From NCBI RefSeq assembly GCF_010499265.1, contig NZ_JAAGSC010000040.1, positions 186,001-250,000 of the forward strand: a DNA stretch of 64,000 nt, read 5' to 3'. Below, one piece after another: positions 6,618 to 56,028 of this stretch. The position numbers were made by a program, and so were the translations under genes. This DNA comes from Wenzhouxiangella limi. Its GTDB lineage: Bacteria > Pseudomonadota > Gammaproteobacteria > Xanthomonadales > Wenzhouxiangellaceae. Numbering within the stretch: position 1 is the first letter of the stretch; each line of letters starts with the position of its first letter. The notes under the pieces are model-generated. The model saw only the letters and a list, made by a program, of their open reading frames with translations. It searched no databases and was not told the DNA's origin.

Positions 6618-6631
6618 TTGATACATATCAA
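6618..6631 (+). promoter_or_regulatory. FNR/ANR box upstream of frdCAB
   Basis: TTGATACATATCAA is a perfect match to the FNR consensus TTGAT-N4-ATCAA. It lies 67 bases before the GTG of frdC and 72 bases before the divergent SDR gene, so it can activate the former, act on the latter, or both. Confidence 0.7.
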
Positions 6632-25154: not shown

Positions 25155-25940
25155 TCACCCCCAATCCCCATGCGCATGGACATGCCGATGTTCAGTGCCG
25201 TCGGCATGGACGTGGCGGTGGGCGTGGGCGAGGTTGGCGCGCCAGAGGAGGTCGGTGTCGGTGAGAGCATCGTCGAGCGGACCGTCGTAGAGCAGCCGGC
25301 CGTCTTCGCCCAGGATCAGGGCGCGCTGGCCGAGTTCGGTCGCCAGCGACAGGTTCTGGGTGGTGACCAGGGTGGTCAGGCCTTGCTGGTCGAGGAGGAA
25401 GTCGACCAGCCAGCCGGTAGCTCGGGGGTCTAAGTTGGCGGTGGGCTCGTCGAGCAGCAGTAGCCTGGGCTGGCAGGCCAGTACGCAGGCCAGGGCCAGG
25501 CGCTGTTTTTCCCCACCCGACAAACGATAGGGCGGGGTGGCCAGGTATTTTTCCAGCTGCAGGCGTTCGGCCCAGCGCCTGGCGACGGCAGTCGGCTCGG
25601 GCATGCCGAGGCGCTCGGGGCCGTAGGCGATTTCTTCAGCGACGGTGGCGTTGAACAGCATGGCCTCGGGGGACTGGAAAACCATGCCAACGTCGCGGCG
25701 GAAGTGCCGCGCAAACTCGCGCTGGCGCAGGCGGCTGGCCGACAGGGCCTCGCCCTGGTAGCGGATCTCGCCGCCGGTGGGGTCGAGCAGGCCGTCGATC
25801 AGTTTGAGCAGCGAGGACTTGCCGCAGCCGTTGGCGCCGAGCAGCACGACGCGCTCTTCTGGATTCAGGCGAAAGCTCACTTCCTTAAGAATGGCTTCGC
25901 CTTCCGGATACCGAAAGCTGACCTGCTCAAGTTCGATCAT
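25155..25940 (-). CDS. nikO: Nickel ECF transporter ATPase NikO
   Basis: A 261-residue ABC ATPase with Walker A LGANGCGKSSLL, Q-loop VGMVFQSPEAMLF, signature RLSGGEKQRLALA and Walker B LLLLDEPTANLDP, as in CbiO/NikO. The C-terminal 25 residues are rich in histidine (AHRHVHADGTEHRHVHAHG), consistent with handling of nickel or cobalt. It drives the ECF-type uptake complex with the four genes before it on the minus strand, and overlaps nikQ by 14 bases. Nickel rather than cobalt is inferred from the NikR operator and the hydrogenase context. Confidence 0.9.
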   Translation of the reverse strand: MIELEQVSFRYPEGEAILKEVSFRLNPEERVVLLGANGCGKSSLLKLIDGLLDPTGGEIRYQGEALSASRLRQREFARHFRRDVGMVFQSPEAMLFNATVAEEIAYGPERLGMPEPTAVARRWAERLQLEKYLATPPYRLSGGEKQRLALACVLACQPRLLLLDEPTANLDPRATGWLVDFLLDQQGLTTLVTTQNLSLATELGQRALILGEDGRLLYDGPLDDALTDTDLLWRANLAHAHRHVHADGTEHRHVHAHGDWG

Positions 25941-26484
25941 CGAAAAATCCTCGCGAGCGCATGCCCAAGTTCACTTCCGTGGCCTGCAGTTCGGCCTTTT
26001 CCAGCAGGGCCCCGGCCTGGCGTCCGGCGCTGCGGGCGCGGGTGGCAAGATCAGGCCGGCCGAGGCTGCGGCTGCGAAAGGCCATGCGGTAGTCGGTGAG
26101 CAGGCGCTGGAAGGTCTTGATCTGGCCCAGCGCCAGCACCACCACGAACTGCAGCGAGCGCGAGAAGTCGACCGCGCGCACCAGGTCCAGGTGGCGGGCC
26201 AGCCACAGGGTGAGGAAGGTCAGCAGCAGCACGCGCAGGTTCAGGCGCAGCACGAACAGGCCCCAGGGTTCGCCGGCCAGGCTGGCGCTCAGGACAAAGC
26301 CTAGGCTTACGGCGATGTTGACCAGGGCGATGGCGATCAGGGCGCGCTTGAGCAGGGTCGGGGTGGCGCGTCCGGCGAGCAGCAGGGCAGCGGTCAACAG
26401 CCCGCCCAGCCACAGCGGGTCGTGGATGAAGGTGATGCCGACCACGGCCACCAGCCACACTGAAAGCAGCAGGCGATCCTTCAT
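25927..26484 (-). CDS. nikQ: Nickel ECF transporter membrane subunit NikQ
   Basis: A 185-residue integral membrane protein of the CbiQ/NikQ T-component family with about five hydrophobic segments. Two coupling motifs of the family are visible as MAFRSRSLGRP and MRSRGFFDDRT near the end, which contact the ATPase. Length is shorter than the usual 220-250 residues. It overlaps nikM by four bases and nikO by 14, so the operon is tightly packed. Confidence 0.87.
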   Translation of the reverse strand: MKDRLLLSVWLVAVVGITFIHDPLWLGGLLTAALLLAGRATPTLLKRALIAIALVNIAVSLGFVLSASLAGEPWGLFVLRLNLRVLLLTFLTLWLARHLDLVRAVDFSRSLQFVVVLALGQIKTFQRLLTDYRMAFRSRSLGRPDLATRARSAGRQAGALLEKAELQATEVNLGMRSRGFFDDRT

Positions 26485-27122
26485 GCCGGCACCCGGCGGC
26501 GTTCGACCACGCTCAGGACCATCCAGGTCAGGATGCCTTCGCCCAGAGCGATGATCAGGTGCGGGCCGACCACCACCGGCAGGGTCACGGCCGGCCCGAA
26601 CGGAAAGAACAGCGGCTGGCCTTCCGTATCGCTGCCCATCAGCGGCTGGATGCCCAGCACCAGGGCGACCAGCGTGGCCGCCACCACCACCCCCAGCCAG
26701 ACCCCGATCACGGCGGCGGCCGGTCGGTGGACTTTTGCAAGCAGCCGGAACACGCCGACGGTCACGGCCGCCCCGGTCAGACCCATGGCCAGGGCGTTGA
26801 TCGCCAGCACGGTGATGCCGCCGGCGCCCAGCAGCAGCGACTGCAGCACCAGCACCAGGCTGTAGGCCAGAAACGCCGGCCAGACCCCGAACGCCAGCGC
26901 CAGCAGGCCGACCCCGACCAGGTGGCCGGAGGTGCCGCCGGGCAAGGGCACCATCACCGTGGTCAGCACGAAGGCCAGCGCGGTCAGCACGGCCAGGCGC
27001 GGGATCAGGGCGTCGTCGAACTCGCGCGCGACCTTGCGCACCGCATACGCCCAGGCCGGTGCGGCCACGGCGTAGGCGCCCAGGTAGACCTGCGGCGCGA
27101 TCAGGCCGTCAGGGATGTGCAT
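26481..27122 (-). CDS. nikM: Nickel ECF transporter substrate-binding subunit NikM
   Basis: A 213-residue membrane protein that begins MHIPDGLIAP, the hallmark of CbiM/NikM, in which the N-terminal Met1-His2 backbone and side chain bind the metal. About six to seven hydrophobic segments follow (for instance VVVAATLVALVLGI). GGTSGHLVGVGLLALAFGVW is the conserved helix with a metal-binding His. It overlaps nikL by 14 bases. Together with NikL, NikK, NikQ and NikO this gives the NikKLMQO arrangement described for nickel. Confidence 0.92.
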   Translation of the reverse strand: MHIPDGLIAPQVYLGAYAVAAPAWAYAVRKVAREFDDALIPRLAVLTALAFVLTTVMVPLPGGTSGHLVGVGLLALAFGVWPAFLAYSLVLVLQSLLLGAGGITVLAINALAMGLTGAAVTVGVFRLLAKVHRPAAAVIGVWLGVVVAATLVALVLGIQPLMGSDTEGQPLFFPFGPAVTLPVVVGPHLIIALGEGILTWMVLSVVERRRVPA

Positions 27123-27573
27123 GGGCTTTCTTGCGCTTCCGCCACAGGATCAGCAGGCCGGCCAGGCCGAGCAGGTAGCCGACGCCAGCCAGGATGTTGA
27201 CCAGGCGGTTGCGGGGAGGGCCCTCGACCTCGGTCACGGCTAGCGCCTCGTCGACCCGCACGCGCACCTCCAGCCCGTGACCGTCCTCGGTGGTCACCAC
27301 CACCCGCCAGCGCCCGGGCCGGTCGGGCAGAAAGCTGATCCGGCCCAGGGCGTCAGTGCGTCCGTTCTGAAAAGCGACCTCGGAGTCCGGCGCGAAGATC
27401 TGGTAGGGCACGAACACCGGCTGCTGCCCGAACGGGTGCGACAGGCTCAGGACCTGGGCCTCGGCGGTGGCGATCTCGTGGTCCATGCGATGACCCAGGG
27501 CCAGCGAGCTGATCCCGATCAGCATGACGGCGACGAGGAGGCGGCAGGGCATCTTGAGCGATCGACAGGACAT
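27109..27573 (-). CDS. nikL: Accessory nickel transporter subunit NikL-like
   Basis: A 154-residue protein with an N-terminal hydrophobic segment (LLVAVMLIGISSLALG, possibly a cleaved signal), a small periplasmic beta domain (VPYQIFAPDSEVAFQNGRTD, GRISFLPDRPGRWRVVV) and a single C-terminal membrane helix (ILAGVGYLLGLAGLLIL) followed by a basic tail ending KKAHAHP. The fold and position between nikK and nikM fit NikL, an auxiliary subunit of Nik(KLMQO). A second start at 27552 (MPCRLLVAV) is also possible. It is less conserved than the core subunits, so the symbol rests on context. Confidence 0.75.
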   Translation of the reverse strand: MSCRSLKMPCRLLVAVMLIGISSLALGHRMDHEIATAEAQVLSLSHPFGQQPVFVPYQIFAPDSEVAFQNGRTDALGRISFLPDRPGRWRVVVTTEDGHGLEVRVRVDEALAVTEVEGPPRNRLVNILAGVGYLLGLAGLLILWRKRKKAHAHP

Positions 27574-27593: not shown

Positions 27594-28358
27594 TTATGGG
27601 TTTTGGGTTGGCTTCCCGAAGGTCAGCGAGGCGTAGAAACTCTCGACGTCGCAGACCGACGGGTCAGGATAATCGATCTCGCCGTGGGCGAGCAGCAGCC
27701 ACGGGCCTTCACCCTCCAGCATCACTTCGGTCCGGCCGTCGGCGTTTGTTTCCAGCACCGCGTAAGGGTCCTCGCCCGATGCGCTGTGAAAAGCCAGCAG
27801 CGGCCCGGCGTGCGGCTGGCCTTCGAACAGGACCTGAACGGGCAGGGTGTCGCCGGCCTGTAGCGTGTTGGGCTCGCCCTGGGGGATGATTTCCAAACGG
27901 TGGCCAAGTGATGTTGCCACAGCCGACGGTCCGCTGTCGCCCACCTTGACCAGGGTCTTGGACCCGTTGTCGGAATAGCTGCAGCGCACCGCGTTGGCCA
28001 CTTCCGAGCGCGGCAGCCGTTGGCCGCCCTCGGTGGTCTGGGTCCAGTAGCCGCGCGCCTGACGCACGCCGATCACAGACACGCCGGGCTCGGACAGGGG
28101 CGGGCTTGTCACGGCGCCGTCGCCAGCCAGGTCGAGCGCGATCTGCTGCCCGTCCGCCAGGGTCACGGTGGCTTGGGCCAGGCGATCGGCCGCCATTTCC
28201 TCGTCGCCGGGAAAGGCGTGGCCGAAGTAGGGCAGAACCTGCACCGCCTGCCCGGGTTCGACCTGGGCGGGTTCGGCCAGGACCCAGGGGTGGTGGGCGT
28301 GGACTGAGCCGGCGACAAAGCCGGTTGCGATCAGGGCGATGGCAAGAATGCGCGTCAT
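27594..28358 (-). CDS. nikK: Periplasmic DUF4198 protein, NikK-like
   Basis: A 254-residue protein with a signal peptide (LAIALIATGFVAGSVHA, ending in AHHP) and a DUF4198 beta-rich periplasmic domain. The mature N-terminus begins HHPWVL, a histidine pair that could bind nickel, and GHAFPGDEEM and GLLLAHGEID-like segments are typical. NikK is an auxiliary nickel-binding part of the ECF transporter. It is 20 bases before nikL in transcription order, and 20 bases after the TonB receptor, so all six genes look like one operon. Confidence 0.8.
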   Translation of the reverse strand: MTRILAIALIATGFVAGSVHAHHPWVLAEPAQVEPGQAVQVLPYFGHAFPGDEEMAADRLAQATVTLADGQQIALDLAGDGAVTSPPLSEPGVSVIGVRQARGYWTQTTEGGQRLPRSEVANAVRCSYSDNGSKTLVKVGDSGPSAVATSLGHRLEIIPQGEPNTLQAGDTLPVQVLFEGQPHAGPLLAFHSASGEDPYAVLETNADGRTEVMLEGEGPWLLLAHGEIDYPDPSVCDVESFYASLTFGKPTQNP

Positions 28359-28378: not shown

Positions 28379-30382
28379 TCAGAACAGGTAGCTGGCCTGC
28401 AGCTTGACGCTGCGGCCGGGCTGGTTGATCAGGGTCAGGTGGCGACGGTAGGTCGCATCACTCAGGTTGTCGATGCGCGCGCTGATGCGCAGATCGGGCG
28501 TGGCCTGCCAGGTCGCGTACAGGTCGATCAGGGTGTGCGACGGCGTGGGCTGGGCCCGGTGCATGCCGCCCAGGACGCGGTCCTGCTCGAAGGTGTGGAC
28601 GATCTGGCCGCCCAGCAGCAGGGCCGGCAGGCGGTGCTCCAGGCGCAGGCCGATCTCGTCGCCCGGGATGCTCTCCAGCGGGATGCCGAGTTCGCGGTCG
28701 TCGCCGCGCTGGCGGGCGCCGAACAGGCCGGCGCTGTAGTCGCCGATCCGCCAGTCCAGCTCGACTTCCAGCCCTTCGACCCGGGCCTGGCCGACGTTGT
28801 CGAAGCGGGTGGTGTTGGTCAATGGCGCGGGCGCATCATGGCCGCGCACGCGCTGCTCGATGAAGTCGTCGATGTCGTTGCGAAACACCGCCAGGCGCGC
28901 CTTGAGCCGGTCATCATTCAACAACACGCCGCGGCGGTCGAAGCGCAGGCCCAGCTCGTAATTGCGCGCCGACTCCGGCTGCAGCTCGGGGTTGGGAACG
29001 TAGAAATTGCCCGGGAAATGCTGGCCGCCGATGAACAGCTCGCGCAGCGCCGGGGCGCGAAAGGCCTCGTTGAACGAGGCGCTCAGCGTCCAGTCGCTGG
29101 CCAGGTCGAACAGCAGGCCGGCCTGGTAGGAGGTCTGGGAGAACGAGGTCGCGACCAGCTCGGCCTCGTCGGGCCGGGAGTCGATGGCGTCGTGGCGCAG
29201 GCCCAGCACCAGGTCCAGGCGCGCGGTCAGCTCGGCCCGGTTCTGGGCGAACAGGCCAACGGTTTCGCGCTGTGAGCCGCGAAACTGCGGCGCCGGCCGG
29301 CCGTTGCGCAGCCCGCGCTGGGTGTCGCGGTAGAGCTCGGCGCCGTAGGTCAGAGTATGGGCAATAGTGCCGGTCTGCAGCCGGCTGCTGTTGGCGAGGT
29401 CCACGCCCACGGTGCTCAGGCTGTTCTCCACCCGGGCCTGGCCGGCTACAACCGGGCGCTCGTCGAGCATCAGGTCGCTCCAGTAGACTACCGCGTCCAG
29501 CGCCAGCAAGTCGCTGTCGGGGTAGAGCTGGTAGCGCAGGCTCATCGACTGCTGGCGGCTGGAGCGGTCGACCACGGTGCCGCTGGCGCGGTCGGCGGTG
29601 CCGAGGCTGGGGCTGTCGTCGACGTAGCCCAGGTAGGTCAGGCTCAGGTGCTGGGCCTGGTCGGGCCGCCAGCTGCCCTTGACCAGGCCGCTGAAGACAT
29701 CGCTTTCGGTCAATTCAAGGGTGTTGCCGTCGCCGTCGACGTAGTCATCTGAAGCGCGGCGGCTGACGCTGGTGATCAGGCCGGCATCGCCGGCTTGCGC
29801 GGCCAGGGTCGCGCTGCCGATCCGGGCGTTGTTGTTGCTCTGGTAGCCCAGCCGGGCCTGGCCGCCGAAGCTGGCGCCGGGTTCGAGAAAGCCTTCGGCG
29901 TCCAGGGTCTCGAACAGGATCACCCCGCCGGTGGCGCCGCTGCCGTAGAGCGAGGAGGCCGGGCCGCGCAGGATCTCGACGCGCTCGAGCAGGGCCGGGT
30001 CGAGCAGGCTCTGGGCGCGGTGGCGGATGGCCATATTCTGGCGCGCTCCGTCGATGCGCATCACCACCCGGCCTTCGCCCAGCCCGCGGATGTTGGGCAC
30101 CAGCGCTTCCGGTCGCGGCCCCTGCGCGGACTGCACCCCCGGGAGGTCGGACAGCAGGTCGGCCAGATCGCCGGCCTGGCGCAGCTCGATCTCTTCGCGG
30201 TCGAGCACGCTGACCGGTGCGATGACCTGCTGCTCGGGCTGAACGACCCGGCCGATGGTGACCAGGATGGTGTCGGCCGGGCGCTCGACGTTCGTCGCGG
30301 CCGCCATTGCCGGCATCGACAACAGCACCATCGCGGCCACGGTCCGACGCCAGGCGCACGCTAGAGAAGACAGAAAACCCAT
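28379..30382 (-). CDS. TonB-dependent receptor, likely for nickel
   Basis: A 667-residue outer membrane receptor: signal peptide ending AMAAA, an N-terminal plug (about residues 60-160; QAGDLADLLSDLPGVQ, VPNIRGLGEGRVVMRIDG, LLERVEILRGPASSLYGSG) and a 22-strand barrel ending in SYLF with the usual terminal Phe. The substrate is inferred: the gene heads the nik operon and its promoter carries a perfect NikR operator. Nickel receptors of this kind (FrpB4-like, HmuR-like) are known in other proteobacteria. Iron or haem chelates cannot be excluded by sequence alone. Confidence 0.85.
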   Translation of the reverse strand: MGFLSSLACAWRRTVAAMVLLSMPAMAAATNVERPADTILVTIGRVVQPEQQVIAPVSVLDREEIELRQAGDLADLLSDLPGVQSAQGPRPEALVPNIRGLGEGRVVMRIDGARQNMAIRHRAQSLLDPALLERVEILRGPASSLYGSGATGGVILFETLDAEGFLEPGASFGGQARLGYQSNNNARIGSATLAAQAGDAGLITSVSRRASDDYVDGDGNTLELTESDVFSGLVKGSWRPDQAQHLSLTYLGYVDDSPSLGTADRASGTVVDRSSRQQSMSLRYQLYPDSDLLALDAVVYWSDLMLDERPVVAGQARVENSLSTVGVDLANSSRLQTGTIAHTLTYGAELYRDTQRGLRNGRPAPQFRGSQRETVGLFAQNRAELTARLDLVLGLRHDAIDSRPDEAELVATSFSQTSYQAGLLFDLASDWTLSASFNEAFRAPALRELFIGGQHFPGNFYVPNPELQPESARNYELGLRFDRRGVLLNDDRLKARLAVFRNDIDDFIEQRVRGHDAPAPLTNTTRFDNVGQARVEGLEVELDWRIGDYSAGLFGARQRGDDRELGIPLESIPGDEIGLRLEHRLPALLLGGQIVHTFEQDRVLGGMHRAQPTPSHTLIDLYATWQATPDLRISARIDNLSDATYRRHLTLINQPGRSVKLQASYLF

Positions 30383-30408
30383 GCAACAAGATTCCGATCC
30401 GGGACTGG

Positions 30409-30436
30409 GTATGAAGAATAATAAAAATCTTCATAC
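30409..30436 (-). promoter_or_regulatory. NikR operator (GTATGA-N16-TCATAC)
   Basis: A perfect match to the E. coli NikR operator: GTATGA at 30409-30414 and TCATAC at 30431-30436, separated by exactly 16 bases. It lies 27-54 bases before the TonB receptor start, where it would cover the promoter. nikR itself is the next gene upstream. Nickel-bound NikR should repress the operon. Confidence 0.88.
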
Positions 30437-30441
30437 TTTTC

Positions 30442-30455
30442 TTGATCCGGATCAA
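30442..30455 (-). promoter_or_regulatory. FNR/ANR box beside the NikR operator
   Basis: TTGATCCGGATCAA is a perfect FNR-type palindrome. If its centre is at -41.5, transcription would begin near 30407, right at the edge of the NikR operator. Oxygen-controlled activation combined with nickel repression is inferred. Confidence 0.72.
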
Positions 30456-30510
30456 ATCCGTATTAATTCCCGCTAGGTTTTTCTTAATCCATCGGGCCGG
30501 GCTTCAGGCC

Positions 30511-30981
30511 TCAGTCGTGCGGCGTGATGTGCTCGTGGGCGTGGACGTGATCGCCGTGCGAGTGCTGATCGGCCTCGACCCGCACCGGCACCAGGTGCAG
30601 ATCGCCGTGGCGTACGCCGCGGCGGGCGATGAACTGCTGGGAGAACTCGCGTACCCGCTTCAGCGGTCCGCGCAGGATGCTGGTTTCCAGGCAGTGATCA
30701 TGATCCAGATGCACGTGCAGGGTGGCCACGGTCAGGTCGTGGTGGGCGTGCTGGGCTTCGGTCAGTTGATCGCCCAGCCCGCCGCGGTGGTGGTCGTAGA
30801 CGTAGCTGAGAATACCGACACAGCCGCCGTCGGGGTCGCCTTCGGCGCGCTCGCGCGCCATGAAGCCGCGCAGCAGGTCGCGAATGGCCTCGGAGCGGCT
30901 GGCGTAGCCCAGGCGCTGCCGGTAGGCCTCGAAGGACTCGGCCAGATCCTTGTCCAGAGAGACGGTAAAACGTTCGGTCAT
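30511..30981 (-). CDS. nikR: Nickel-responsive regulator NikR
   Basis: A 156-residue ribbon-helix-helix/ACT regulator. The N-terminus TERFTVSLDKDLAESFEAY is the DNA-binding strand and helix. The nickel ligands align with E. coli NikR: His78 (in QHAHHDL), His89 and His91 (LHVHLDHDHC) and Cys97. The core ends at VRHGDLHLVPV. A C-terminal tail of about 25 residues is rich in His (HSHGDHVHAHEH) and is absent from the E. coli protein. A perfect operator is found 75 bases after the gene, before the nickel operon, so the target is clear. Confidence 0.95.
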   Translation of the reverse strand: MTERFTVSLDKDLAESFEAYRQRLGYASRSEAIRDLLRGFMARERAEGDPDGGCVGILSYVYDHHRGGLGDQLTEAQHAHHDLTVATLHVHLDHDHCLETSILRGPLKRVREFSQQFIARRGVRHGDLHLVPVRVEADQHSHGDHVHAHEHITPHD

Positions 30982-31032: not shown

Positions 31033-31046
31033 TTGATCCCGGTCAA
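31033..31046 (+). promoter_or_regulatory. FNR/ANR box in the nikR / thioredoxin-fusion divergent region
   Basis: TTGATCCCGGTCAA (TTGAT-N4-GTCAA) lies 52 bases before nikR (minus) and 64 bases before the thioredoxin-membrane fusion (plus). Either or both may be controlled. Confidence 0.6.
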
Positions 31047-34958: not shown

Positions 34959-34972
34959 TTGATCCACGTCAA
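34959..34972 (+). promoter_or_regulatory. FNR/ANR box between hypA and the maturation protease gene
   Basis: TTGATCCACGTCAA (TTGAT-N4-GTCAA), 54 bases before the protease ATG and 112 bases before hypA on the other strand. It would place the structural hydrogenase operon under oxygen control. Confidence 0.68.
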
Positions 34973-35973: not shown

Positions 35974-37050
35974 ATGAGTAAGCTGAAGCAACGGAAAGAC
36001 CGGCCGACGATCGGTCAAGTGATGGATGAGGCCGGCGTCGGTCGTCGTCAATTCATGAAATATTGTGCCGGCATGACGGCGCTGATGGCGATGCCGCCGA
36101 TGGCAACCACGGCTTTTGCCAAGCAGCTGCGTGCCGCCCGCCGGCCGTCGGTGATCTACATGCCGTTCCAGGAATGCACCGGCTGCCTGGAATCGCTGAC
36201 CCGATCATTCGCGCCGAGCCTGGAAAGCCTGATTTTCGACACCATCTCGCTGGACTACAACCATACGCTGCAGGCCGCCGCCGGTCATGCGGCCGAGGAA
36301 GCCCGGCTCGAAGCGATGGAAGAGAACTGGGGCGAGTACATCCTGATCGTCGATGGCTCCATTCCGACCAAGCTCAACGGCATGTACGGTGTCAGTGAGA
36401 GCCATACCTTCATGGAGCAGCTCGAACAGACCGCCGAAGGCGCAGCCGCGATTGTCGCGGTCGGCGTTTGTGCCGCTTACGGTGGCGTCGGTGCGGCTTA
36501 CCCGAACCCGACCGGTGCGGTGGGCGTGGCCGACCTGATCAAGAACAAGCCGGTCATCAACGTGCCCGGCTGTCCGCCAATTCCGGAAGTCATGACCGGC
36601 ACGCTGGTCAGCTTCCTGGCCAACGGGGTGCCGGATCTCGATGCGCATCTGCGTCCGCGTGCCTTCTTCGGCAACACCATCCACGACCGCTGCTATCGCC
36701 GGCGCTTCTATGACCGTGGCCTGTTCGCCAAGTCCTTCGACGACGAAGGCGCGCGCAACGGCTGGTGTCTGTACGAACTGGGCTGCCGCGGCCCGACCAC
36801 CTACAACGCCTGCGCCACGATCAAGTGGAACGGCGGTGCCGGCTGGCCGGTGGAATCCGGTCACGGCTGCATCGGCTGCTCCGAGCCTGGTTTCTGGGAC
36901 CAGGGCGGCTTCTACGAGCCGGTTACGGCGAAGCTGTTCACCGAGCGTGGCGAGTCGATAGCGGCTGCTGCAGCCGGTGTTGCAGTGGGTGCAGCGGCGG
37001 GCCTTGCCTCGAAGGCGCGCAAGAAGAAACTGGCTAGCGAGACCGAATAA
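35974..37050 (+). CDS. hynS: NiFe hydrogenase small subunit (HynS, group 1e-like)
   Basis: A 358-residue small subunit that carries three iron-sulfur clusters. The Tat motif GRRQFMKYCAGM has its Arg pair at residues 24-25, and cleavage is likely near residue 49 (TTAFA). Cluster ligands appear in FQECTGCLES (Cys68, Cys71), VGVCAAYGG, NVPGCPPIPEVM, CYRRRFYDRG, GWCLYELGCRGP and GHGCIGCSEPGFWD. The C-terminus has only a weakly hydrophobic, Ala-rich stretch (AAAAAGVAVGAAAGLA) followed by a basic tail, so the usual strong membrane helix is poor. Gene order with isp1 and isp2 inserted before the large subunit marks the Isp type. Confidence 0.95.
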   Translation: MSKLKQRKDRPTIGQVMDEAGVGRRQFMKYCAGMTALMAMPPMATTAFAKQLRAARRPSVIYMPFQECTGCLESLTRSFAPSLESLIFDTISLDYNHTLQAAAGHAAEEARLEAMEENWGEYILIVDGSIPTKLNGMYGVSESHTFMEQLEQTAEGAAAIVAVGVCAAYGGVGAAYPNPTGAVGVADLIKNKPVINVPGCPPIPEVMTGTLVSFLANGVPDLDAHLRPRAFFGNTIHDRCYRRRFYDRGLFAKSFDDEGARNGWCLYELGCRGPTTYNACATIKWNGGAGWPVESGHGCIGCSEPGFWDQGGFYEPVTAKLFTERGESIAAAAAGVAVGAAAGLASKARKKKLASETE

Positions 37051-37061
37051 GGAGATCAATC

Positions 37062-37730
37062 ATGTCGATACTTGAATTTTCCCGTGGACCGATGCTCCAC
37101 TTTGCACTGCTGGTCTTCGTGTTCGGCGTTCTCTGGAGGCTGGTGGCCGTACTCATGCTGGGTTTCCGCAAGCGCTACAGCGAAGAGCGGAACTCCAACG
37201 ACAAGGCCTTGATGGTCGGCGGCGCGACCTGTGGTCTGCGTTCCTGGCCCCACAAGGAGTTCATCGGTCGAACCGCGTTCGGTGAAGCGGTCGGCTATGG
37301 CTATCACATCGGGCTTTTCACCATTGTTCTGCTCGGCGGCCCGCACGTGATCTTCTGGCAGAACCTGTTCGGGTTCTCGGCCCCCTGGTGGCCGACCTTG
37401 CCCGGTGGCCTCATCACGGTGGTGTCGGTGCTGACGGTCATCCTGATGCTGATCGCGACGATTCGCCGCTACATGCACAGGCCGCTGCGCCAGATCTCCA
37501 ACTTTGATGATTACTTCACCCTGGCCATCCTGTACGCCATCATGATTTCCGGCCTCTGGGCGGTTCTGGGCGGACCGGGCCGATACGAGTACATCCTCGC
37601 CGCCCACATCATTTCGTTCAATCTACTGTTGATCTGGTTCCCGTTCGGAAAGCTGATGCACGCGTTCTATATCTTCCCGGCGCGATTCGTTAACGGTTAC
37701 CTGCATGCCAAGAAGGGAGCTGCCACATGA
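37062..37730 (+). CDS. isp1: Isp1 membrane cytochrome b subunit of the hydrogenase
   Basis: A 222-residue membrane protein with five hydrophobic segments, related to the NarI/DsrM type of cytochrome b. Histidines suited to haem b are in GYGYHIGLFTIVLLGG, the tail of the second helix, and in AHIISFNLLLIWFPFGKLMHAF. In Thiocapsa, Isp1 pairs with Isp2 to link HynSL with the membrane. It overlaps isp2 by ATGA. Direction of electron flow (hydrogen uptake or evolution) cannot be told from sequence. Confidence 0.9.
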   Translation: MSILEFSRGPMLHFALLVFVFGVLWRLVAVLMLGFRKRYSEERNSNDKALMVGGATCGLRSWPHKEFIGRTAFGEAVGYGYHIGLFTIVLLGGPHVIFWQNLFGFSAPWWPTLPGGLITVVSVLTVILMLIATIRRYMHRPLRQISNFDDYFTLAILYAIMISGLWAVLGGPGRYEYILAAHIISFNLLLIWFPFGKLMHAFYIFPARFVNGYLHAKKGAAT

Positions 37731-39040
37731 GCACTACAGCCACTCAAGCATTTGCCGGCGCAGGCGCCGCCAACGACAACCGCACTGCGGAAGAGCGCGT
37801 TGAAGGTGCCATGGGCGCATTCGCCAGGAGCTTCGGCGCCACCGTTGCCTGGAACATGGAGTCCTGCATTCACTGCGGGATGTGCGCCGACGCCTGCCAT
37901 TTCTACATCGCCACCGGCGATGCCAAGTACACGCCGATCTGGAAAGCCGAGATGTTCAAGCGAGCTTTCCGCCGTGAGTCCGGAGCTTTTGCCCCGTTCT
38001 TCAAGGTCCTGGGTCTGAAGAAGAAAGTGACCCTGAAAGACCTGGAAGAGTGGCAGGAACTGCTGTTCGACAGCTGCAACATGTGCGGCCGCTGCAGCCT
38101 GATCTGCCCCATGGGTCTGGAAGTCGCCGAGCTGATCGAGATCGGTCGTCGCGGCATGTACGAAGCGGGCCTGGCACCCAAGGAGCTGGCCGACCGCGCC
38201 GCCCTGCAGGCCGAAACCGGTGTGCCCGAAGAGGTCGAAAAGCCGTACGCCGAACTGCTCAAGGAGATCGGTGAAAAGCACGGGGTCGACGTTGTCCTCG
38301 ACAAGGCCAAGGCCGACATCATGGTCTGTGCGCCGCGTAACGATCTGAACCGCAACCCTTCATCGGTCGCAGCCATGGTCAAGGTGCTCAACAAGCTGGG
38401 TGCCGACTACACCTTCCGTTCCGACGCCATCGTGGCCGAGAACTACGGTTACTATGCCGGCAGCAACGGTCTGCAGAAGAAAATCGCCAAGCGGGTCGTT
38501 GATCAGGCCAAGAAGATCGGCGCCTCGCTGGTGCTGGTCCCCGAGTGCGGCCACGCCTATTATTCATTGCGCTGGCAGGCGGCCGAACTGATGGGTGAAA
38601 CCCTGCCGTTCAAGGTCCGCCACGTCACCGAGTATCTGGCCGAACAGGTCGAAGCCGGCAAGCTCAAGCTCAACAAGGTCGATGGCCTTCCGACCGCCTT
38701 CCACGATCCCTGTCAGATCGTGCGCAAGGGTGGCGTGACCGAAGCGCCGCGGACGCTGATGAGCGAACTCGGCGTGAACCTGAAGGAAATGTTTAATCAC
38801 GAAGGCTTCAGTTTCTGCTGCGCCGGTGGTGGCGGGATGAACGATATCGAGCGCACTCGACCCCTGCGCCTGAAAGCCCAGGAGGTCAAGCTGCACGAGG
38901 TCGACGATACCGGCGCCAAACGGTTCCTGACCTCCTGCTCGGACTGCCGCGTGGCGTTCGACGACGCCGGCGAACATTTCAATTGGGACAAGAAGACCGA
39001 AAGTCTGGTCGAGCTTGTCGCCGACAATATCAAGGAGTAG
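37727..39040 (+). CDS. isp2: Isp2, HdrD-like iron-sulfur subunit of the hydrogenase
   Basis: A 437-residue protein of the heterodisulfide-reductase HdrD/GlpC type. Two [4Fe-4S] motifs are visible, CIHCGMCADACH (about residues 47-58) and CNMCGRCSLICP (about 119-130). Two CCG-type cysteine domains follow: VPECGHAYYS with HDPCQIVRKGG, and FSFCCAGGGGMND with TSCSDCRVAF. It lacks a signal peptide or membrane helix and should face the cytoplasm attached to Isp1. This links periplasmic hydrogen oxidation to a thiol/disulfide-type or quinone site, as proposed for Isp hydrogenases. Confidence 0.92.
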   Translation: MSTTATQAFAGAGAANDNRTAEERVEGAMGAFARSFGATVAWNMESCIHCGMCADACHFYIATGDAKYTPIWKAEMFKRAFRRESGAFAPFFKVLGLKKKVTLKDLEEWQELLFDSCNMCGRCSLICPMGLEVAELIEIGRRGMYEAGLAPKELADRAALQAETGVPEEVEKPYAELLKEIGEKHGVDVVLDKAKADIMVCAPRNDLNRNPSSVAAMVKVLNKLGADYTFRSDAIVAENYGYYAGSNGLQKKIAKRVVDQAKKIGASLVLVPECGHAYYSLRWQAAELMGETLPFKVRHVTEYLAEQVEAGKLKLNKVDGLPTAFHDPCQIVRKGGVTEAPRTLMSELGVNLKEMFNHEGFSFCCAGGGGMNDIERTRPLRLKAQEVKLHEVDDTGAKRFLTSCSDCRVAFDDAGEHFNWDKKTESLVELVADNIKE

Positions 39041-39046
39041 TAACCC

Positions 39047-40798
39047 ATGGCCATGTCGAATGGAACCGTTGTCGTCGATCCGGTAACCCGCATTGAGGGT
39101 CACCTCCGGATGGAGGCAGTCACAGAAAACGGCAAGATCACAAAAGCCTTGAGCTCCGGGACCATGGTGCGTGGGCTGGAGATCATTCTCAAGGATCGCG
39201 ATCCGCGCGACGCGTGGGTTTTTACCCAGCGTATCTGCGGGGTCTGCACCCTGGTGCACGCCATCGCTGCCGTGCGCGCCGTTGAGGATGCGCTCAAGAT
39301 CGAGATTCCGCCGAATGCGCAGCTGATCCGCAACCTGATGATCGGCGCGCAGTATGTCCACGACCATGTCATGCACTTCTATCATCTGCATGCCCTGGAC
39401 TGGGTGGACGTGGTGTCGGCCCTCAATGCCGATCCGGCCGCGACTTCGCAGCTGGCTCAGTCGATCTCGGATTACCCGCGCTCTTCGCCCGGTTATTTCC
39501 GCGACGTCCAGACCAAGGTTCGCAACTTTGTCGAATCCGGTCAGCTGGGCATCTTCGCCAAGGGCTACTGGGGTCATCCGGCCTACAAGCTGCCGCCTGA
39601 AGCCAATCTCATGGCGGTGGCGCACTACCTGGATGCCCTGGAATGGCAGCGCGAAGTGGCCAAGCTGCACGCGATCTTCGGCGGCAAGAACCCGCACCCG
39701 AACTTCCTGGTCGGCGGTGCACCTTGTGCCATCAGCGTGCACGCCGACGAGCCGGGTGCCGGTCAGACGTCGGTCAATACCACCGGTCTGCAGAAAGTGG
39801 CCAACATCCTGGAGCAGATCAAGACGTTTGTTGATCAGGTCTATGTCCCCGATACGCTGGCCATTGCCTCGTTCTACAAGGACTGGTTCAAGACCGGCCA
39901 CGGTGAAGGTCTGGGTAATTTCCTGAGCTATGGCGATTTCCCGACCAACGGCTACTTCGACCCGAGCAGCCTCATCATTCCGCGTGGTGCGATCCTCAAC
40001 CGCGATCTGTCGCGCATTCACGAGGTCGACCTGCACGCCGAAAACGAGATTCAGGAGTTCATCTCGCACTCGTGGTACGACTACGAGGGCGGCAAGGACA
40101 CCGGGCTGCATCCGTACATCGGCGAGACCACCCTCAACTACGACGGGCCCGATGCCCACTACGACAACCTGGACATGGATTCGACCTACACGTGGCTGAA
40201 GGCGCCGCGATGGAAAGGACATTCCATGGAAGTCGGGCCGCTGGCGCGCGTGTTGATTCTCTATGCCTCCGGTCATGAGCCGACGGTGGATCTGGCCAAC
40301 TACGCGCTGGGTCAGCTTGACCTGCCGGTCGAGGCCATGTTCTCGACCATGGGCCGAGTGGCCGCGCGGACGCTGGAGACCAAGATCCTCGCTGACATGA
40401 TGGACGGCTGGTTCACTGATCTGAACGTCAACATCAACGCCGGGGATACCCGAACCCAGAATTCCGAGAAGTGGGATCCGGGCACCTGGCCCAAGGAGGC
40501 GCGGGGCGCCGGCTACATGGAAGCTCCACGCGGTGCCCTGGGTCACTGGGTGGTCATCAATAACGAGAAGATCAAGAACTGGCAGGCCGTTGTTCCGACC
40601 ACCTGGAATGCCGGTCCGCGCGATCCGGAAGGAAAGCCTGGCGCCTACGAGGCTTCTCTGGTCGGCCACGATCTGCATGATCCGGATCAGCCGATCGAAA
40701 TCCTGCGCACCATTCACAGCTTCGATCCCTGCCTGGCCTGTGCCGTGCACGTGGCCGACACGGACGGGAACGAACTGGTGCAGGTCAAGGTAAGCTAG
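39047..40798 (+). CDS. hynL: NiFe hydrogenase large subunit (HynL)
   Basis: A 583-residue catalytic subunit. The N-terminal nickel ligands are in QRICGVCTLVHAI (Cys64, Cys67), preceded by DPVTRIEGHLRM. The C-terminal ligands are in DPCLACAVHV (Cys562, Cys565); the protease should cut after His568 and remove 15 residues (VADTDGNELVQVKVS). The presence of that tail fits the protease gene at the head of the operon. It has no signal peptide and is exported with HynS through Tat. A strong terminator follows. Confidence 0.97.
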   Translation: MAMSNGTVVVDPVTRIEGHLRMEAVTENGKITKALSSGTMVRGLEIILKDRDPRDAWVFTQRICGVCTLVHAIAAVRAVEDALKIEIPPNAQLIRNLMIGAQYVHDHVMHFYHLHALDWVDVVSALNADPAATSQLAQSISDYPRSSPGYFRDVQTKVRNFVESGQLGIFAKGYWGHPAYKLPPEANLMAVAHYLDALEWQREVAKLHAIFGGKNPHPNFLVGGAPCAISVHADEPGAGQTSVNTTGLQKVANILEQIKTFVDQVYVPDTLAIASFYKDWFKTGHGEGLGNFLSYGDFPTNGYFDPSSLIIPRGAILNRDLSRIHEVDLHAENEIQEFISHSWYDYEGGKDTGLHPYIGETTLNYDGPDAHYDNLDMDSTYTWLKAPRWKGHSMEVGPLARVLILYASGHEPTVDLANYALGQLDLPVEAMFSTMGRVAARTLETKILADMMDGWFTDLNVNINAGDTRTQNSEKWDPGTWPKEARGAGYMEAPRGALGHWVVINNEKIKNWQAVVPTTWNAGPRDPEGKPGAYEASLVGHDLHDPDQPIEILRTIHSFDPCLACAVHVADTDGNELVQVKVS

Positions 40799-51526: not shown

Positions 51527-51540
51527 TTGATCCGGATCAA
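51527..51540 (-). promoter_or_regulatory. FNR/ANR box upstream of the CymA-like gene
   Basis: TTGATCCGGATCAA, identical to the box before the nickel operon, 57 bases before the ATG. Anaerobic activation of the quinol dehydrogenase is inferred. Confidence 0.75.
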
Positions 51541-54844: not shown

Positions 54845-55818
54845 CCTCCGGTGCTGGCCAGGTGCGGGGTATCTCCGACCCGGCCCTGGTGCAGAAAGTG
54901 AGTGGGCGGTTTTTCGAACAAGGCCTTCATGATATGGCTTTTGAGGGCCTCGGTTTGATCGTCGTCTTGCAGGAGTGCGCGCAGGTCGGTGCTGCCGTTG
55001 CCGAACAGGCACAGTTTCAAAGCGCCACGGGCGGTCACGCGCAGGCGGTTGCAGCCGTCGCAAAAGTGCGCGGCGTACGGCGCGATCAGGCCGATGTGCC
55101 CGGCGTGATCGGGATGGGCGTACTCCACCGCCGGACCGGCTGCGGGTCCGCGCCGGACCGGCTGCCAGCCGCCGGCTTCCAACTTTTCTCGGATTCGGCT
55201 GCCGGGAACGTGGTGGCGCTGGAAATAGGGCTGGTTGTCGCCGGTCTGCATCAGTTCGATGAAGCGCAGGCTGATCGGCCGGTTGCGCACGAAGTCGAAA
55301 AACGCCGGCAGCTGGTCGTCGTTGAGCTCGCGCAGCAGGACGGTGTTGATCTTGACCGAGTCGAATCCGACCGCCAGGGCCTGGTCGATCCCGTCCATGA
55401 CCTGGGCGAAGCGACGATCGCCGGTAATGCGCCGGAAGCTTTCACCCTCGAGCGCGTCAAGGCTGATGTTGACCGCGTTCAGGCCCGCCGACTTCCACGC
55501 AGCCGCATTCTTGGCCAGGCGATAGGCGTTGGTCGTCATCGCAACCCGCTCGACGCCGGGCGTGCCGGCGACGGCGCTGAGGATCTCGGTGAAATCGCGC
55601 CTGACCGTCGGCTCACCGCCGGTCAGGCGCACCTTGAAGGTGCCGAGCTCGGCAAACGCCCGCACCAGCCGACGGATTTCGGGGACGGTCAAGAAACCCC
55701 GCTTCGAGCCGCGGAAGCCATCCGGAAGGCAGTACTGGCAGCGGAAATTGCAGACTTCGGTCAGTGAAAGCCTGAGGTAGGAAAAGCGCCGGCCGAACCG
55801 GTCTTGCAGGGTCTGCAC
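54841..55818 (-). CDS. moaA: GTP 3',8-cyclase MoaA
   Basis: A 325-residue radical SAM enzyme, first step of molybdenum cofactor synthesis. The N-terminal cluster is CNFRCQYC, the second cluster FCDGCNRLRVTARG with a later Cys (LKLCLFGNG). It ends HLASTGG; the C-terminal Gly-Gly is needed for activity in MoaA. The GTG at 55818 (VQTLQDRFGR) is seven bases after AAAAGGAG and is preferred over a TTG at 55836. It heads a tightly coupled operon moaA-moaC-moaD-moaE-mobA-moeB-CMD. An FNR box and a structured leader lie upstream. Confidence 0.95.
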   Translation of the reverse strand: MQTLQDRFGRRFSYLRLSLTEVCNFRCQYCLPDGFRGSKRGFLTVPEIRRLVRAFAELGTFKVRLTGGEPTVRRDFTEILSAVAGTPGVERVAMTTNAYRLAKNAAAWKSAGLNAVNISLDALEGESFRRITGDRRFAQVMDGIDQALAVGFDSVKINTVLLRELNDDQLPAFFDFVRNRPISLRFIELMQTGDNQPYFQRHHVPGSRIREKLEAGGWQPVRRGPAAGPAVEYAHPDHAGHIGLIAPYAAHFCDGCNRLRVTARGALKLCLFGNGSTDLRALLQDDDQTEALKSHIMKALFEKPPTHFLHQGRVGDTPHLASTGG

Positions 55819-55871
55819 TGGAGTGCTCCTTTTCAAGAAAGTTGGAAGGCAAGGCCGTTTCCGGCGTTTGC

Positions 55872-55964
55872 CCCGGCCTGGGCGACACGCAGGTGCCGCT
55901 TCGGCGGTATCCCTGCCGTGCCCGTCAGCGGCTGATCGAAAGCCGATGCCGGGGGTAGGCCGGG
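55872..55964 (-). promoter_or_regulatory. Structured moaA leader, candidate Moco riboswitch
   Basis: On the minus strand, CCCGGCCT (55964-55957) pairs with AGGCCGGG (55879-55872) to close a 93-base domain. Inside are a CGGCT/AGCCG hairpin (55929-55945) and a GCAGG/CCTGC stem with an inner CCGC/GCGG tetraloop hairpin (55889-55916). This multibranch shape ahead of moaA, in the place where the Moco RNA motif is usually found, makes a riboswitch plausible. I did not match the conserved positions of the motif, so this is a candidate only. Confidence 0.4.
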
Positions 55965-56028
55965 ATACTCGGAGACGTTGTATGCCGGTCAGCGTACGAC
56001 GATTTGCCCAGGGTCGGCTTGACTCAGG

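Follow-up and report, generated by a model that had tools for sequence, protein, structure and literature searches.

In E. coli, the nikA promoter is under NikR repression and is Fnr-dependent in anaerobic conditions, with nickel-dependent regulation seen both with and without oxygen (PMC9434800); the logic of joint FNR and NikR control is therefore already known. In delta-proteobacteria, nikMQO/nikKL operons are NikR-regulated (Rodionov et al. 2004, PMC545781), and in Helicobacter, as is predicted for the locus described below, outer-membrane nickel receptor genes (FrpB4, FecA3) are under NikR (PMC7055735; PMC7689651). We analysed a window of 64 kb, that is, the whole stretch of contig NZ_JAAGSC010000040.1 from position 186,001 to 250,000 in assembly GCF_010499265.1 of Wenzhouxiangella limi (genome 3.35 Mb); coordinates are those of the window. 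We conclude, with a probability of about 0.88, that it carries a predicted sigma-70-type promoter of FNR class II, activated by FNR and repressed by NikR, which would read leftward from about 30408 and feed nickel import.

Two adjacent sites and a predicted promoter

The preliminary description of this DNA had reported a GTATGA-N16-TCATAC operator with exact spacing and, five bases from it, a perfect FNR box. Both are found precisely where it placed them, with 5 bp between them in the window sequence. The strand had not been named: the promoter lies on the minus strand and points leftward, into a gene whose ATG ends at 30382.

30442..30455, minus strand: FNR box TTGATCCGGATCAA, an exact palindrome; predicted class II activator site, centre near -40.5/-41.5
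30409..30436, no strand assigned: NikR operator GTATGA-N16-TCATAC, 28 bp; predicted binding site, sole perfect copy in the genome
30415..30420, minus strand: predicted -10 hexamer TATTCT, 21 bp past the FNR box and within the NikR operator
30407..30408 (+/-2), minus strand: predicted transcription start, placed from the -10 position

The operator sequence is identical to the published E. coli operator (PMC7055735), and its arms reach 9 bp (GTATGAAGA/TCTTCATAC). A scan of the 3.35-Mb genome returned this one perfect match, none with one mismatch and 14 with two mismatches, the last showing no excess over a reversed-pattern control (18 sites). Perfect FNR boxes, on the other hand, number 15 genome-wide against 0 in the control and, because the genome holds 15 of them, the chance of one lying within 40 bp of the NikR operator is about 4e-4. 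If boxes with one mismatch are counted too, they become fairly frequent, with 7 in the 64-kb window, and one could imagine that the two sites are neighbours by accident and that the NikR operator alone matters; that low chance, and the fact that the spacing and half-sites are kept in 7/7 species despite diverged flanks, make such a coincidence hardly credible.

The seven species are the window's genome and the 6 that carry nikR among 29 genomes of the same genus. All six of these congeners keep both sites and the exact 5-bp gap; their operators have 0-1 mismatch and their FNR boxes one mismatch each. Across the seven, mean pairwise identity is 89% for the half-sites of the FNR box and 96% for those of the operator, but falls to 37% and 39% in the two flanks and to 45% in the 5-bp gap.

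The spacing of the predicted promoter elements is conserved as well. Each of the seven Wenzhouxiangella species has a TANNNT hexamer beginning 21 bp past the FNR box, within the operator. The operator palindrome does not account for its invariant first T and A, while the last T may be kept as a part of the operator rather than of the -10, the extended half-site being TTCATAC in the genus. The hexamers are weak, those of the congeners matching TATAAT at 3-5 of 6 positions, and a generic promoter scan found nothing. The arrangement is nevertheless that of an FNR class II promoter, in which a TTGATNNNNATCAA box near -41.5 replaces the -35 element and precedes the -10 by ~21-22 bp. The claim that the FNR box is centred near -41.5 stands up well, with the hexamer at the same 21 bp as in E. 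coli nikA. From the -10 position, we predict the start at about 30408 (30407 in the preliminary description), relative to which the operator spans about -28 to -1. GTATGA-N16-TCATAC thus overlaps the core of the predicted promoter, as in NikR-repressed promoters, and with the -10 inside the operator, NikR would probably cover the core promoter, as had been proposed.

The operon and its regulators

The predicted promoter follows the end of nikR and precedes a run of genes on the same strand:

30511..30981, minus strand: nikR, nickel-responsive repressor, ending just upstream of the promoter (NCBIfam NikR 1.8e-52, Pfam NikR_C 6.3e-30)
28379..30382, minus strand: TonB-dependent outer-membrane receptor, the operon's first gene (TonB barrel 2.5e-53, plug 8.4e-27)
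27594..28358, minus strand: DUF4198 protein, NikK-like periplasmic component (PF10670 1.2e-33; NikK role suggested by position)
27109..27573, minus strand: NikL-like ECF component (NF058648 NikL family 6.1e-15, below cut-off)
26481..27122, minus strand: CbiM/NikM substrate-specific membrane component (PF01891 5.4e-54)
25927..26484, minus strand: NikQ-like transmembrane component (no family match; assigned by position between NikM and NikO)
25155..25940, minus strand: NikO/CbiO ATPase (PF00005 1.1e-35; best NCBIfam ECF ATPase 4.8e-52, below cut-off)

CbiM/NikM, an ATPase, NikK and NikL thus occur in one operon, as in NikKLMQO systems; CbiM, the ABC ATPase and DUF4198 score above the Pfam cut-off, whereas NikL falls below its curated cut-off and NikQ is placed by position only. 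The receptor matches a TonB-hemin subfamily model. Downstream of the promoter, no NikA binding-protein ABC transporter of the E. coli NikABCDE type was found, its place being taken by the TonB receptor and the ECF genes. Control by a cobalamin riboswitch was considered and rejected, none being found in the part of the window from 20 to 60 kb; from the context alone, that is, nikR, the hydrogenase and the lack of such a riboswitch, the transporter is predicted to be of nickel rather than cobalt type. The gene order TonB - nikR // DsbD-like (the last divergent) is kept among the congeners, with nikK after the TonB gene where contigs reach. In a separate sequence (L092, position 351, minus strand), a one-mismatch GTATGA-type operator lies upstream of a NikK-like gene and has no FNR box beside it, so NikR control of NikK-type transporters probably also occurs without FNR.

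Both regulators appear intact. Aligned to E. coli NikR (1q5v, 2hzv), the NikR encoded here is identical at R3 and T5 and at H76, H87, H89 and C95, the nickel ligands (PMC7055735), so that all four ligand residues are conserved in the cognate repressor. The genome's one FNR has a C-x2-C-x5-C motif, a fourth cysteine and an IETVSR recognition helix of the E..SR type, and it aligns to solved FNR-type regulators such as 5e44 and 5cvr. The same genome encodes at least five Crp/Fnr-type helix-turn-helix proteins, and this leaves some room for another member of the family, for example of the NO-responsive DNR type, to bind the FNR box, in which case the signal would not be oxygen itself. We consider this improbable, however: the four cysteines and the E..SR helix are combined in one protein only, and the other strong paralogues have neither the cysteine cluster nor the helix.

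The hydrogenase island and read-through from nikR

Beyond nikR, the window contains a thioredoxin/DsbD-like gene (named from its sequence, the glutaredoxin match being weak), a flavodoxin, cytochrome b561, hypB/hypA, a maturation protease and a [NiFe] hydrogenase; as the genome has no urease match, the hydrogenase is the obvious nickel consumer. Two further FNR-like boxes accompany these genes:

31033..31046, plus strand: second FNR-like box TTGATCCCGGTCAA, with nikR on one side and the divergent thioredoxin/DsbD-like gene on the other; present in 7/7 species
34959..34972, plus strand: third FNR-like box TTGATCCACGTCAA, before the hydrogenase operon; conserved in 6/6 species
35974..40798, plus strand: [NiFe]-hydrogenase genes (small subunit, Isp-like proteins, large subunit; hydA small subunit 1.4e-121, PF00374 1.2e-232)

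From the box at 31033, a NANNNT hexamer is found at 22 bp toward the DsbD-like gene in 7/7 species, the nikR side having no consistent hexamer; from that at 34959, TANNNT is found at 22 bp toward the hydrogenase in 6/6 species and is not conserved toward hypA. By their sequence conservation, these island boxes support the idea that hydrogenase and nickel import share anaerobic control. That nikR, too, is a class II target of FNR was considered and set aside, given the lack of a consistent -10 on that side and, in one species (G002), of room for one; the sequences do not clearly mark it as an FNR target. Elsewhere, perfect FNR boxes are found in the promoter of hemN, which adjoins fnr, and, in the window, before a fumarate reductase/succinate dehydrogenase cytochrome/membrane subunit (6618-6631) and before a NapC/NirT-type cytochrome (51527-51540), the latter two fitting an FNR regulon as expected; some other perfect boxes fall within reading frames and are probably chance. 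The window also holds a molybdenum/tungsten cofactor riboswitch (RF01055, 51 bits) at 55810-55986 on the minus strand.

Across the genus, nikR and hydrogenase tend to occur together, with a hydrogenase in 6/7 genomes that have nikR against 2/23 of the rest (Fisher p 3e-4, with no correction for relatedness); in the single nikR genome where no hydrogenase was detected, completeness is 88%. A 99% complete congener (G011:C26, L031 and L032) has a hydrogenase with FNR boxes before it and shows no match to NikR or CbiM.

The strongest challenge to the promoter reading comes from nikR's own position. In 5/7 species, about 10 to 55 bp at most separate the end of nikR from the FNR box downstream of it, on the same strand, and we found no minus-strand terminator-like site between it and the promoter; because nikR is co-directional and no such site intervenes, read-through could express the operon without FNR. 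Taken to its conclusion, the operon would be expressed mainly in this way, with NikR at 30409-30436 acting as a roadblock or the local promoter being minor, and oxygen control would be weak. We regard this as unlikely, if less so than a different Crp/Fnr protein at the box: if NikR were a pure roadblock, neither the FNR box nor the 5-bp spacing nor the TA in the -10 would be conserved, and for the FNR-like box that precedes nikR, the conserved -10 faces the divergent gene rather than nikR.

We therefore favour a local promoter under FNR and NikR. Without oxygen, FNR would occupy 30442-30455 and recruit RNA polymerase to the weak -10, 21 bp downstream; with sufficient cellular nickel, Ni-NikR would occupy the operator and block the polymerase. 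The output would be the TonB receptor and the NikKLMQO-type ECF transporter and, these being nickel-import genes, nickel import would track the anaerobic demand of the hydrogenase. In sum, we infer FNR activation at about -41, occlusion of the promoter core by Ni-NikR and a nickel import matched to hydrogenase demand. The preliminary description had gone one step further and had nickel import turned on only when oxygen is low and nickel short. Its NikR/FNR reading is supported by the conserved sites, the gene content, the intact regulators and the E. coli precedent; the word "only" is too strong for oxygen, given the possible read-through from nikR and given that, in E. coli, where the same logic is known, nickel-dependent regulation is seen with and without oxygen.

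Relation to known systems

A strict composite scan of 85,000 species, in which the records of the window's own genome were possibly left out, gave no hit; it was too strict, since the congeners and E. coli have at least one mismatch in the FNR box. A looser scan returned 13 stretches, of which 4 come from the window's relatives (gap 5), 2 lie upstream of nikA in enterics (gap 7) and the other 7, at other spacings, look like chance or coding sequence. Where records with this composite carry a name, it is Wenzhouxiangella or, in one case, Gammaproteobacteria, and they come from the CSSed and PLM2 sets. We take these sets to be soda-lake samples. A fixed-gap search of 368 other members of the class found only chance-like matches with 2-3 mismatches, and at most of the other gammaproteobacterial nikR loci surveyed, a GTATGA-type operator is absent within 1.5 kb. 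A similar 47-bp stretch, about GGGATCACATA-GTATGACC-ACATTCTTCATAC and 2-3 mismatches from the composite, is shared by genomes of four different families (L056, L059, L061, L064) and is perhaps coding sequence.

The enteric promoters offer the closest comparison. E. coli nikABCDE and the Wenzhouxiangella operon have in common the NikR operator consensus, an upstream FNR site, a -10 inside the operator and an FNR-to--10 distance of 21 bp. The FNR site of E. coli nikA is imperfect (TTGATCCAGAACAG, read from the sequence), whereas the W. limi box is perfect, and the gap between the sites is 7 bp in E. coli but 5 bp in Wenzhouxiangella, which shifts the operator by 2 bp relative to the promoter. 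Yet in E. coli K-12, Enterobacter and Buttiauxella, all with the 7-bp gap, TAAAAT or TATAAT lies exactly 21 bp past the FNR box (3/3); the distance being constant at both gaps, the activator-to--10 spacing is what stays fixed, and the operator is offset by 2 bp between the two lineages. The genes controlled differ altogether, E. coli having a NikA-type binding-protein ABC transporter and Wenzhouxiangella a non-homologous TonB receptor and ECF operon.

Since the transporters are non-homologous and the spacing differs, the double control may have arisen separately on NikABCDE in enterics and on the TonB receptor and NikKLMQO in Wenzhouxiangella; going by the sequences, we hold this tentatively, at slightly less than even odds. 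If true, nickel uptake would have come under anaerobic gating more than once, and core occlusion would tolerate a changed operator register with the FNR-to--10 distance held at exactly 21 bp. The 5-bp and 7-bp gaps provide a natural comparison of the freedom of a repressor site once the distance from activator to -10 is fixed.

The delta-proteobacterial nikMQO/nikKL operons (PMC545781) likewise encode an ECF nickel transporter with extra periplasmic components and an adjacent nikR; their operator, GTGTTAC-N13/14-GTAACAC, differs from the enterobacterial-type operator of Wenzhouxiangella, the passages on them mention no FNR site, and the Wenzhouxiangella operon is also led by a TonB receptor. 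The nickel TonB receptors of Helicobacter, in turn, stand in an operon context unlike that of Wenzhouxiangella. We know of no FNR component for these NikR-regulated receptors. A search of the literature, with most subscription journals outside its reach, found no published report of an FNR/NikR composite on a TonB-receptor/ECF operon. From the present locus, one would predict that both oxygen and nickel can directly control outer-membrane receptors for nickel. It also extends the textbook two-signal promoter of E. coli to relatives of Wenzhouxiangella from soda lakes, where the uptake system is a different one. What is new, compared with the known systems, is the FNR/NikR logic on a non-homologous operon of TonB receptor and ECF genes, beside an FNR-boxed [NiFe]-hydrogenase island.
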